Assembly: GCF_014672715.2 (NCBI RefSeq)
Contig: NZ_CP058566.2
Coordinates: forward strand, 372,001 to 436,000
Length of the DNA: 64,000 nucleotides
Reading direction: 5' to 3'
Source: Dehalogenimonas etheniformans
GTDB lineage: Bacteria > Chloroflexota > Dehalococcoidia > Dehalococcoidales > Dehalococcoidaceae
Numbering within the stretch: position 1 is the first letter of the stretch; every line of letters starts with the position of its first letter. Below, one piece after another: positions 6,588 to 16,927 of the stretch. A program made the translations under genes and the position numbers. Under the pieces are notes generated by a model. It saw only the letters and a program-made list of their open reading frames with translations. It had not been told where the DNA came from and searched no databases.

Positions 6588-7055
6588 TTAGCTCCCGTCA
6601 TATAAGCCTTTTGTTTTATTTTGCTGGACGATCCGATAGAATTCGGCGCTAACATCGACGCCCTTTTCACGCAAAACACGTTCCGTCATTTCTACGGCAT
6701 GCGACAGGTCCAGGAACTCATGGAGCCATTTATTGTAGTCATCCGGTGATTTTTTATATGCGGCTGAAAATTCGTTGTATTCCTCGGTGATCTTGTTGAA
6801 CTGGTGCGCCGGGGTAAATTCGCCCCGAACTCGCGGGAATTTGAAGATAGCCTTTACCGCGCCGAAATGCCTCTGGAAAATATACTTGTCGACATACCAG
6901 AACACTGAAGCCAGAAGAAGCTGGTTTAGCAGGAAAGCGGGGAAAGTTGGGATGGAGAATTGATCGACCAGGATTACCTGCAGGATAGCTCCGGCAATTC
7001 CCGACAGCAGAATCCATCTTCCGAAGACGTACACGAACCATTCTTTGGAAAACAT
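6588..7055 (-). CDS. Membrane-anchored MazG-like pyrophosphohydrolase under a ZTP riboswitch
   Basis: A 155-residue protein. Residues ~10-60 contain two hydrophobic helices. The C-terminal half (about 80-150) reads like an all-alpha NTP pyrophosphatase: an ExxE-type helix (KITEEYNEF), a second acidic helix with the E-x2-D pattern (HEFLDLSHAVEM), then GVDVSAEFYRIVQQNKTKG, similar to the end of MazG-like domains. MazG enzymes hydrolyse NTPs to NMP and pyrophosphate using magnesium held by these acidic residues. The gene is preceded by GGAAG and by a complete ZTP riboswitch with terminator, so expression should rise when ZTP/ZMP accumulates. Inference: it may hydrolyse ZTP or another folate-stress nucleotide. 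The fold call is from motif reading only. Confidence 0.65.
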   Translation of the reverse strand: MFSKEWFVYVFGRWILLSGIAGAILQVILVDQFSIPTFPAFLLNQLLLASVFWYVDKYIFQRHFGAVKAIFKFPRVRGEFTPAHQFNKITEEYNEFSAAYKKSPDDYNKWLHEFLDLSHAVEMTERVLREKGVDVSAEFYRIVQQNKTKGLYDGS

Positions 7056-7077
7056 CGTTGCTTCCTTTCTCCGTCAG

Positions 7078-7111
7078 AACAAAAACCGCCTGAGCATTTA
7101 GCCCAGGCGGT
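7078..7111 (-). terminator. Riboswitch-controlled terminator
   Basis: On the minus strand, ACCGCCTG pairs with CAGGCGGT around a ~10-nt loop, followed by TTTTTGTT. The 5' arm of the hairpin is the conserved CCGCCTGGGC of the ZTP aptamer, so ligand binding would sequester it and prevent termination. It lies 23 bases before the MazG-like start codon. Confidence 0.88.
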
Positions 7112-7169
7112 CGGCAAATCCGTCGCTCGCGCTCCGTGTGGTGAACTCCACTTCCGCCAGTCGCGCGAA
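7101..7169 (-). promoter_or_regulatory. ZTP (pfl) riboswitch aptamer
   Basis: The minus-strand RNA shows all parts of the ZTP/pfl class. P1 is UUCGCGC/GCGCGAG. The conserved GACUGGCGG follows, then P2 GUGG/CCAC, the ACGGAGC linker, the CGG/CCG hairpin (P3) and the terminal CCGCCUGGGC. The GGCGG of the first domain can pair with CCGCC as the class pseudoknot. This class senses ZTP/ZMP, which build up when 10-formyl-tetrahydrofolate is short. It normally controls folate or purine genes; here the only downstream gene on the strand is the membrane MazG-like protein. Confidence 0.9.
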
Positions 7170-7186
7170 CACTCAAATTTAATTTA

Positions 7187-7216
7187 ACAATATCGTGCCG
7201 AGCGGGTTCCTGTCAA
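7187..7216 (-). promoter_or_regulatory. Promoter of the ZTP riboswitch transcript
   Basis: A consensus -35 TTGACA (7216-7211), an 18-bp spacer and TATTGT (7192-7187) on the minus strand. Transcription would start near 7180, about 10 bases before the aptamer P1 stem. Confidence 0.75.
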
Positions 7217-7273
7217 CGTTTTGCACTCCATTTTGACACAACTATTTTCATAAGCCACAATGGAAATGTGACA

Positions 7274-7591
7274 ATGAAATGGGAAAAGTGTTCCACCGAA
7301 CTTTCGGCCACTTTGGCCGCCGCCACCGCGGGTTCTCCCGCGCAAAAACGGATGATGTTCGGTTGCCCGGCTTACTTTATTAACGACAATATGGTGACCG
7401 GCGTCCACCAGTCGAATATCATCTTGCGGTTGAGTGAGGCCGATCGGCGCTCTATGTTTAAGGAGTTCGACGAGGCTGCGCCCTTTGAGCCATTTTCAGG
7501 GCGATCGATGAAGGAATATTTAGCTCTGCCAGCTGTGGTGTCTGACAACTCCACCGTTTTTCAGTCGTGGCTTTCCAAGGCTTTCGGTTAA
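7274..7591 (+). CDS. TfoX N-terminal domain protein
   Basis: A 105-residue single-domain protein resembling the TfoX/Sxy N-terminal domain: a MMFGCPAYFINDNMVTGVHQSNIILRLS-like core, then a C-terminal SGRSMKEYLALP block typical of these small proteins. TfoX in proteobacteria promotes competence gene expression; stand-alone N-domain proteins are widespread and of uncertain role. The ATG at 7274 is preferred over the in-frame GTG at 7268. It sits divergently from the ZTP-riboswitch transcript and has no clear operon partner. Confidence 0.75.
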   Translation: MKWEKCSTELSATLAAATAGSPAQKRMMFGCPAYFINDNMVTGVHQSNIILRLSEADRRSMFKEFDEAAPFEPFSGRSMKEYLALPAVVSDNSTVFQSWLSKAFG

Positions 7592-7644
7592 GTCTTGTCA
7601 CTGCCGCCAAAGAATGCAAGCAAAAGAGGAATAAGGAGAAATAG

Positions 7645-7923
7645 ATGGCTCGAGTTACAGTTCCCGGTGTCGACAAGGGCAATGTTATGTTGTTCGCTTT
7701 ATCGACCTGCGTTTGGTGCGGCAAGACTAAGAAATTACTGGAAGAAATGGGTGTAGCTTATACCTACGAATATGTCGACCTGCTCTCAGGAAAGGACAGG
7801 GATGCCGCAGTGAAGGAAATCATGGTTTGGAACCCTGCCACTTCCTTCCCCACCCTGGTGATAAATAATGAAAAGTGCATTGTCGGTTTTAAAGAAGACG
7901 AGATTCGGCGGGCTCTGGCATGA
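7645..7923 (+). CDS. Glutaredoxin-like protein
   Basis: A 92-residue thioredoxin-fold protein with the active site [12 protein letters not shown] (C-x2-C), the cis-Pro loop (SFPTLVINN) and a [12 protein letters not shown]-terminus, as in small bacterial glutaredoxins. AAGGAG lies 8 bases before the ATG. Its stop codon overlaps the start of the next gene, a ferredoxin:thioredoxin reductase-like protein (ATGA). The two are therefore translationally coupled and probably act together: the FTR-type subunit would reduce this disulfide protein with electrons from ferredoxin or its own rubredoxin domain. Confidence 0.88.
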
Positions 7924-8429
7924 TGGATTCCAGGCATGATACCGCTGCGGTTGATAACCTTTTCGCCAGGCTTAACGCCGACGCTGAAAAATTCGGTTAT
8001 CACCTCAATCCGGATATCGAGTTCACACGGTCGCTGGTGGAAGGGCTTCTTACTAACATCGGCAGGTATGGCTACATGGCTTGTCCATGCCGGCTTGCCT
8101 CCGGCATACGTGCTCAGGATCTTGATATCATCTGCCCCTGTGACTACCGGGATCCGGATTTAAGCGAATACGGTGCCTGTTTCTGTGCTTTGTACGTTAA
8201 CACTCCGATCCTTCAGGGTAAACAGGCGTTGAAGCCTGTGCCCGAAAGGCGAGGTCAAAAAATGGTTGAAAAAAAACAGGAATCCGCTTCAACCGGAAGT
8301 GTGACCATAAAACTGTCACAGCCGGTGTGGCGTTGCAAAGTTTGCGGGTACCTTTGCGCTCGCGGGGAACCGCCGGAGATCTGTCCCATCTGCAAAGCGA
8401 CGAAAGACCGGTTCGAGCGTTTTGTCTAG
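7920..8429 (+). CDS. Ferredoxin:thioredoxin reductase catalytic subunit fused to rubredoxin
   Basis: A 169-residue fusion. Residues ~10-110 match the FTR catalytic subunit, with the ordered cysteine pairs Cys55-Pro-Cys57, Cys72-Pro-Cys74 and Cys87-x-Cys89 that bind the 4Fe-4S cluster and the redox-active disulfide. A linker rich in K, E, S and T joins a C-terminal rubredoxin-like domain (about 136-169) with CKVCGYLC and CPICKA. The rubredoxin part could deliver electrons directly to the FTR cluster. The gene overlaps the glutaredoxin gene by 4 bases. No separate FTR variable subunit is seen. Cytoplasmic; no signal peptide. Confidence 0.88.
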
Positions 8430-16342: not shown

Positions 16343-16927
16343 ATGGAATACGAAGTCGTTGTTAAATTGCTCGCCATTACGCCCAATGCTGAATCCCTGA
16401 CCGAACAGGCTGGCAGGCTCTGCTATGCCAGCGGGGATAAACTGGGGACCAAAGAAGGATGGCTGCAGGCCCGGGTCAAGCAGGGTCATGACAGCTTGAT
16501 CGAACACGCCTCAGCTACCTTTTATATCAAGGCGTCTCGCGCTCTGACCCACGAATTGGTCCGCCACCGCATTGCTTCGTATTCCCAGCGCAGCCAGCGG
16601 TACGTCAAAGAGTCGGTTGCAGATTACATAACGCCGCCAGAACTGGTAGGGGACAGTGCCACCGCTAGGGTATTCAGAGAGTCCATGGAGGCGGCGTGGA
16701 GAGCTTATGGCGAGCTACTCCAGGCCGGGGTGAAACCGGAGATCGCACGCTATGTTCTGCCAAATGCCTGTTCGACCGAGATTATCTGCACCTGGAACTT
16801 CCGGGAGATCCGCCACATCATCAGGCTCCGGACTGGCCCTGCGGCCTTGCCCGAGATGCGGGCAGTCATGGCTAAAATCAGAGAGATAATGCGGGAGCAA
16901 GCCCCAGGGGTTTTTGGAGATATGTAA
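16343..16927 (+). CDS. thyX: Flavin-dependent thymidylate synthase ThyX
   Basis: A 194-residue ThyX. The family motif RHRxxSxxxxSxR is present as RHRIASYSQRSQRY, and the C-terminal block VLPNACSTEIICTWNFREIRH contributes the substrate/FAD site. ThyX methylates dUMP to dTMP with methylenetetrahydrofolate, FAD and NADPH. The length is slightly short for the family but complete. The gene stands alone between the dehydrogenase trio and the opposite-strand lipoprotein and is followed by a terminator. Confidence 0.95.
   Translation: MEYEVVVKLLAITPNAESLTEQAGRLCYASGDKLGTKEGWLQARVKQGHDSLIEHASATFYIKASRALTHELVRHRIASYSQRSQRYVKESVADYITPPELVGDSATARVFRESMEAAWRAYGELLQAGVKPEIARYVLPNACSTEIICTWNFREIRHIIRLRTGPAALPEMRAVMAKIREIMREQAPGVFGDM

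Follow-up and report, generated by a model that had tools for sequence, protein, structure and literature searches.

What does a ZTP riboswitch control when the gene behind it encodes none of the folate or purine enzymes that this class of switch usually serves? Few clues to the role of an uncharacterised protein are as good as its control by a riboswitch, and a locus of this kind lies on the minus strand of a 64,000-nucleotide stretch of the Dehalogenimonas etheniformans genome (hereafter the window, meaning the whole stretch of DNA that was analysed). Dehalococcoidia, the class to which this bacterium belongs, are used for the clean-up of chlorinated solvents. A preliminary description of the locus, made from the sequence alone, reported a complete ZTP aptamer with its promoter and an overlapping terminator, followed by one gene for a two-helix membrane protein with a MazG-like pair of acidic helices. 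It proposed that the product is a nucleotide pyrophosphohydrolase that clears ZTP, or a different nucleotide that forms under folate stress, at the membrane. We followed up both the observation and its interpretation.

The riboswitch and its single target gene

The elements of the leader and of the gene behind it are as follows (positions are those of the window).

7187..7216 (-), promoter-like site read from the sequence: TTGACA at 7216-7211, an 18-nt spacer and TATTGT at 7192-7187
7094..7174 (-), ZMP/ZTP riboswitch aptamer (RF01750), found by cmscan
7168-7163 with 7132-7127 (-), aptamer P1, TCGCGC paired with GCGCGA
7158-7154 with 7110-7106 (-), aptamer pseudoknot, GGCGG paired with CCGCC
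7081..7111 (-), intrinsic terminator overlapping the aptamer: 11-bp hairpin at 7111-7085, U-run at 7085-7081
7061..7068 (-), ribosome-binding-site-like AAAGGAAG, read from the sequence
6588..7055 (-), open reading frame of the 155-aa protein, with its ATG at 7055; 33 distinct homologues, one match per genome

The cmscan search of the whole window placed RF01750 at 7174-7094 (-) with 58.9 bits (E 5.3e-7; full-length match to model positions 1-86), against a curated cut-off of 39 bits, which confirms that the aptamer is complete. Six further members of the genus score 56-65 bits. P1, P2, P3 and the inter-domain pseudoknot are intact, with 18 of 18 aptamer pairs present in all eight genus sequences, and both the sequence and the placement of the aptamer are strongly conserved among these eight. 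One pair of P1 shows a compensatory change from U-A to C-G, which with n=8 amounts to weak covariation.

The promoter and the terminator that had been described are likewise seen. TTGACA lies 5' of the aptamer in 8/8 Dehalogenimonas members, in this genome paired with TATTGT, and the terminator is present in 8/8 as well. The terminator hairpin (ACCGCCUGGGC-UAAAU-GCUCAGGCGGU, 11 bp, followed by the U-run) folds at -21.8 kcal/mol, compared with a mean of -7.9 for shuffled sequences (z -6.4), and none of 200 shuffles was equally stable. Within its 5' arm lies CCGCC (7110-7106), which also forms the 3' strand of the pseudoknot in the aptamer; aptamer and terminator are therefore mutually exclusive, and binding of the ligand should block termination, switching the gene on. 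The stretch 7216-7081 (-) is thus a real ZTP/ZMP riboswitch with the anatomy of a transcriptional ON switch, from which we infer ZTP-dependent read-through into the 155-aa gene. Since gatA, the next gene downstream, is on the opposite strand, the switch serves one gene.

In aptamer sequence, P1-P3, pseudoknot, 3'-overlapping terminator and ON logic, the element is the same as the ZTP/ZMP riboswitches known as the pfl motif (RF01750). In pfl RNAs, terminators overlap the 3' part, and the ligand raises expression (PMC2864571). The difference lies in the target: the known ones are purH, glyA, fhs, folD and pfl-type genes (PMC2864571), whereas here the gene encodes an undescribed membrane protein. 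The switch thus belongs to a known class, but its kind of target is undescribed; the preliminary description likewise treated the target as unusual. Our literature search found no paper linking ZTP riboswitches with a pyrophosphohydrolase, although the gene may already be listed in Kim et al. 2015.

The match is the only one to RF01750 in this 2.07 Mb genome (2,068,322 bp). RF01750 was found in 26 of 251 sampled Chloroflexota genomes, including 7/7 sampled Dehalogenimonas members, and an eighth member (L077/G420) also carries it; in all eight, it lies 45-65 nt before the gene for the 155-aa protein. Outside the genus, the readable genes after Chloroflexota RF01750 are PurH-like or GlyA-like by sequence recognition, which agrees with the claim that the usual targets are folate or purine genes; at two loci (L035 and L046) the following gene gave no clear call. 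The pairing of the ZTP switch with the 155-aa-protein gene has therefore arisen as a derived state within a single genus. It is kept genus-wide despite low synteny, gene order across Dehalogenimonas being otherwise poorly conserved (PMC13390414). The family gene also occurs without the riboswitch, in Dehalococcoides-like genomes and in genomes of three further families (f4, f7 and f9).

Two observations on other leader-like RNAs may be added. In viral contigs, 43 pattern matches to ZTP-like motifs were obtained; a simple P1 test left 20 of them, in none of which could P2 be recognised or a plausible target gene be seen, and these were judged to be chance. In the window, a T-box leader (RF00230, 103 bits) lies at 49552-49289 (-), directly before a trp-operon-like cluster.

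The target protein family and its predicted fold

Judged by its 33 distinct homologues, each the only match in its genome, the 155-aa open reading frame is a real gene. A scan of 84,980 species genomes returned 18 full-length relatives, of which 17 are labelled Chloroflexi/Dehalococcoidia and one is in an Omnitrophica metagenome-assembled genome (MAG), and whole-genome searches found the family gene in 28 of 393 genomes of the class Dehalococcoidia. The carriers include three riboswitch-free genomes of a second genus of the same bacterial family, with chromosomes of 1.4-1.5 Mb (the Dehalococcoides-like ones). Viral contigs and plasmids yielded no relatives. Scans of the 155-aa protein against Pfam, NCBIfam and PHROGs, and of the family members against Pfam and NCBIfam, gave nothing over cut-off, and PDB sequence searches with protein and profile queries found no relative; the protein belongs to an undescribed family. 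The best profile names (Trigger_C, ZapD, birA and prenyltransferase repeats), all below cut-off, were set aside as generic helical noise.

Hydrophobic helices are predicted at residues 4-31 and 37-71, in line with the two-helix membrane protein described earlier. The two helices of residues 1-66 are very strongly conserved, with the stretches MFSKEWFVYVFGRWILLSGIAGA...PAFLLNQ...FWYVDKYIFQ, and this membrane half is better conserved than the rest of the protein (mean column entropy 0.54 bits versus 1.10). Judging from the positive residues that surround the helices, the protein may form a membrane hairpin with both ends cytoplasmic. A Desulfurellaceae MAG holds a 57-aa open reading frame (L020:5001-5174) that matches family residues 1-28 and about 48-66, apparently a single-helix version without the MazG-like domain; it is divergent from thiM/thiE, and a search of 24 other genomes of that phylum found no relative.

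Residues 70-155 are modelled as a three-helix domain, with an AlphaFold pLDDT of 92.6 for the domain alone and 74.5 for the whole protein. With the domain model, the first eight Foldseek matches are MazG, iMazG or DCTPP1 structures (in order, the MazG proteins 5ie9, 2q5z, 2q73 and 2q9l, then DCTPP1 7mu5) at a probability of 0.96-1.00, though with E-values of only 0.14-0.44; the whole-protein model gives 2yxh first, at a probability of 1.00. Structural re-alignment (VIA) with 2yxh covers 84 residues at an rmsd of 2.3 A (Z 8.2). Altogether 22 entries align over at least 68 residues at an rmsd of 5.1 A or less, and all are all-alpha NTP pyrophosphatases, namely MazG, iMazG, YpjD-type, DCTPP1/RS21-C6 or HisE structures, whereas for unrelated helical bundles the alignment is limited to 49-64 residues or the rmsd exceeds 10 A. 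The Z-scores are at most 8.4, a value of about 8 being modest for a helical bundle. The models thus give good grounds to predict an all-alpha NTP-pyrophosphatase fold (MazG/HisE/dCTPase) for residues 70-155.

The expected match to a MazG or NTP-pyrophosphatase profile, on the other hand, did not materialise: no MazG, HisE or dUTPase profile reaches its cut-off for the family proteins. PF03819 (MazG) does not match the 155-aa protein even at E 10, its best family member reaching E 0.1; PF01503 (PRA-PH) matches 4 of 33 members below cut-off, at best with E 0.035. When the domain was compared by hhalign with small sets of MazG and HisE proteins from these genomes, for which the profiles are shallow, no significant match appeared. 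Because the fold match comes without any profile over cut-off, we call the protein MazG-fold and not a MazG family member. Compared with all-alpha NTP pyrophosphohydrolases (2yxh, 5ie9, 2q5z, 7mu5 and 1yvw; the set covers MazG, iMazG, dimeric dUTPase, DCTPP1/RS21-C6 and HisE), the predicted fold of residues 70-155 is the same, as is the EExxE...ExxD layout in Dehalogenimonas members. The 155-aa protein differs in its N-terminal two-helix membrane anchor and its sub-cut-off scores in all profiles, and most of its family has lost the third acidic residue.

The putative metal site

MazG of M. tuberculosis binds Mg via E119, E122, E138 and D141, and alanine at any of the four reduces activity to 40% or less (PMC10014863). 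The EExxE...ExxD of the 155-aa protein has the same layout, with E92, E95, E113 and D116 as candidate metal residues. Among the 33 distinct members, E92, D116, H119, R126, E138, N146 and Y152 are invariant. Position 95 is E in 18, Q in 14 and D in 1, and position 113 is E in 9, R in 17, Q in 5 and H in 2. The nine holders of E113 are the eight ZTP-controlled proteins and the Omnitrophica member; the tetrad is complete in 7/8 ZTP-controlled members (the exception, L021, has Q95) and reads E-D-E-D in Omnitrophica. Positions 99 and 113 covary perfectly in 33/33 members, as D-R in 17 and as A or S with E, Q or H in 16, and the D99-R113 pairing probably replaces the canonical metal ligand by an inter-helix salt bridge.

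Taken together, the sequences make a canonical metal site plausible for the genus with the riboswitch, while in the rest of the family the site is broken or remodelled. As E113 is lost in 24/33 members, pyrophosphohydrolase activity is unlikely to be a family-wide property. Of the MazG-like acidic helix pair that had been described, the fold and the acidic residues of this particular protein stand, but the residues are not conserved family-wide; the proposed pyrophosphohydrolase is in the same position, with the fold and the nearly unbroken tetrad of the ZTP-controlled members in its favour and Q, R or H at position 113 of most others against it. Overall, the earlier observation is confirmed and its interpretation is partly supported.

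The same residues bear on a different possibility, that the protein binds nucleotides at the membrane without hydrolysing them, serving as a sensor or scaffold that, for example, tethers thymidylate synthase or gates the membrane hairpin. Loss of E113 in so many members and of E95 in 15/33, next to the strict invariance of the other residues listed above, is what such a protein might show; the perfect covariation of positions 99 and 113 is as for a structural salt bridge, and conservation is highest in the membrane half. The complete tetrad in all but one of the riboswitch-bearing members, and its E-D-E-D form in Omnitrophica, are harder to reconcile with it, and on balance we regard a non-catalytic role as somewhat unlikely.

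Gene neighbours and the candidate substrate

One gene of the window, a candidate functional partner of the 155-aa protein in view of the neighbourhoods compared below, is the following.

16343..16924 (+), thyX, flavin-dependent thymidylate synthase (PF02511, E 3e-59; TIGR02170, E 4e-45)

In the window, thyX is 9.3 kb from the family gene, and the linkage is not universal, most members of the genus having no adjacent thyX. In two other Dehalogenimonas genomes (L127/G106 and L128/G074), thyX is the next gene, convergent and about 220 nt away, and in L007/G154 the family gene is followed by thyX on the same strand after 29 nt. In family f9 (L011, L058 and L012), a ThyA-type thymidylate synthase precedes the family gene by 64-206 nt on the same strand (PF00303 over cut-off; the best NCBIfam match, TIGR03283, is below cut-off). 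Since the synthases are of two unrelated kinds and the linkage recurs in three lineages, coincidence is unlikely. metF is near the family gene in L012 and is adjacent and divergent in L081. In family f7, the family gene is followed on the same strand by a gene for a 231-aa membrane protein and then by hisH and hisF, with a divergent histone-deacetylase-like gene.

Thymidylate synthesis and MetF use methylene-THF, HisH-HisF (imidazole-glycerol-phosphate synthase) releases ZMP, and the ZTP switch senses a shortage of 10-formyl-THF. The thyX/thyA, metF and hisHF neighbours and the switch therefore all point to folate/one-carbon metabolism, and the genus-wide ZTP switch before one gene marks this undescribed membrane protein family as part of a folate/one-carbon stress response.

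Which nucleotide the protein might act on is a separate matter. In the preliminary description it was ZTP, and hydrolysis of ZTP, or of another folate-stress nucleotide, would shut off the protein's own riboswitch in a negative feedback. Control by a ZTP riboswitch together with an NTP-pyrophosphatase fold would fit, as would a tetrad that is nearly always whole under ZTP control and broken in nearly all other members, and the position of the f7 gene upstream of hisH-hisF, whose product releases ZMP. The family is older than the riboswitch, however, given its switch-free carriers among the Dehalococcoides-like, f4, f7 and f9 genomes; its neighbours are more often thymidylate or folate genes than anything that indicates ZTP clearance specifically; and hydrolysis would leave ZMP, which this riboswitch class also senses (PMC7266159). 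We consider ZTP clearance unlikely.

We favour instead a folate-stress-induced, membrane-tethered NTP pyrophosphatase of the thymidylate/folate branch, acting on dUTP or dCTP, and give this reading a probability of roughly 0.36; it is preferred because it accounts for thyX, thyA and ZTP together. In such a scheme, when 10-formyl-tetrahydrofolate is short, ZMP/ZTP would accumulate and bind the leader RNA; the bound leader would hold CCGCC (7110-7106) in the pseudoknot, the terminator would be blocked and the polymerase would read through to the single gene. The product would be a membrane hairpin carrying the NTP-pyrophosphatase-fold domain, most likely on the cytoplasmic side. The Dehalogenimonas protein would most likely use E92/E95/E113/D116 to convert an NTP to the monophosphate and pyrophosphate, with dUTP or dCTP as the favoured substrate in view of the thyX, ThyA-type synthase and metF neighbourhoods. 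During folate shortage, methylation of dUMP would stall and dUTP would rise; its removal would provide thymidylate synthase with dUMP and prevent uracil from entering DNA. Cleavage of dUTP by MazG-like enzymes has precedent, DR2231 being an example given by way of PMC5122711, and ordinary dUTPases are absent from many bacteria (PMC5122711).

Several observations count against the dUTP/dCTP reading. The tightest linkage to a synthase coincides with an altered position 113 (Q in G154, R in f9), so that catalysis there is doubtful; the f7 neighbours are a membrane protein and hisH-hisF; and the membrane half is better conserved than the putative catalytic one. The sub-cut-off profile scores, the modest Foldseek E-values and VIA Z-scores, and the scarcity of adjacent thyX within the genus weigh on the same side. 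The wider proposal, of a ZTP-induced membrane-tethered NTP pyrophosphohydrolase that founds a new family and links the folate alarm to sanitation of dUTP/dCTP (or ZTP), is accordingly put forward as a tentative one. If the favoured reading is true, a folate-stress response beside thymidylate synthase would be new for the ZTP riboswitch class, and a pyrophosphatase for dUTP/dCTP or ZTP would illustrate how bacterial DNA is protected, or the alarm reset, under folate shortage.

The f7 gene order and the fold also raise the possibility that the protein supplies a missing HisE, the phosphoribosyl-ATP pyrophosphohydrolase of histidine synthesis. No match to HisE (TIGR03188) exceeds the cut-off in the sampled genomes of the order Dehalococcoidales and of families f7 and f9, among them all sampled carriers, while HisI (PF01502) is present in nearly all of these genomes and in the carriers. 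The place upstream of hisH-hisF in f7, the weak PRA-PH matches and a HisE-like KIxEExxE...DLxxH layout are consistent with such a role. Close relatives without the family gene also lack HisE, however, and Q95/R113 is found in most members of f7, where hisHF is the neighbour. This genome moreover encodes a full-length MazG with PRA-PH similarity, and in Desulfovibrio a MazG protein fills the HisE role (PMC5764234). That protein, DVU1186, resembles the 155-aa protein as a MazG-fold protein in a HisE-less genome, with an anabolic and not a house-cleaning job (PMC5764234); it differs in being a MazG family protein required for histidine synthesis, whereas the 155-aa family is membrane-anchored and does not track the absence of HisE. 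For this last reason HisE replacement was rejected as a general explanation, and we hold it to be quite improbable. The full-length MazG (G000:C1, about 38.9-39.5 kb) is itself a candidate HisE substitute, as in Desulfovibrio.

An enzyme of folate biosynthesis, dihydroneopterin-triphosphate pyrophosphohydrolase, is often unassigned in bacteria, and ZTP control of such a step would fit; all sampled carriers have HPPK, and so de novo folate synthesis. HPPK is equally common in relatives without the family gene, though, and the family gene was nowhere seen linked to folE, folB, folK or folP, which makes this assignment highly improbable. This genome has both HPPK and purH, and the distribution of neither follows that of the family; the carrier G154 has no purH match.

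Some features of the neighbourhoods deserve mention in their own right. The 231-aa membrane protein of f7 is conserved in about 12 genomes (at L008:5512-6204 and equivalent places), about 45-62 nt after the family gene; it shows weak similarity to ECF S-components (E 0.002-0.07), and its substrate could further hint at the function of the family. Four f7 loci (L002, L008, L010 and L014) have molybdenum-cofactor riboswitches (RF01055) 1.5-2.7 kb upstream of the family gene. In the window, a TfoX_N-domain gene, a glutaredoxin-like gene and a ferredoxin-thioredoxin-reductase-like/rubredoxin fusion lie divergently at 7268-8426 (+), and the latter two adjoin the family gene genus-wide. Further along, a formate-dehydrogenase (fdn)/molybdenum-cofactor (Moco) gene cluster at 26161-37562 matches the 11-gene cluster of D. 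etheniformans GP and D. formicexedens (PMC13390414).
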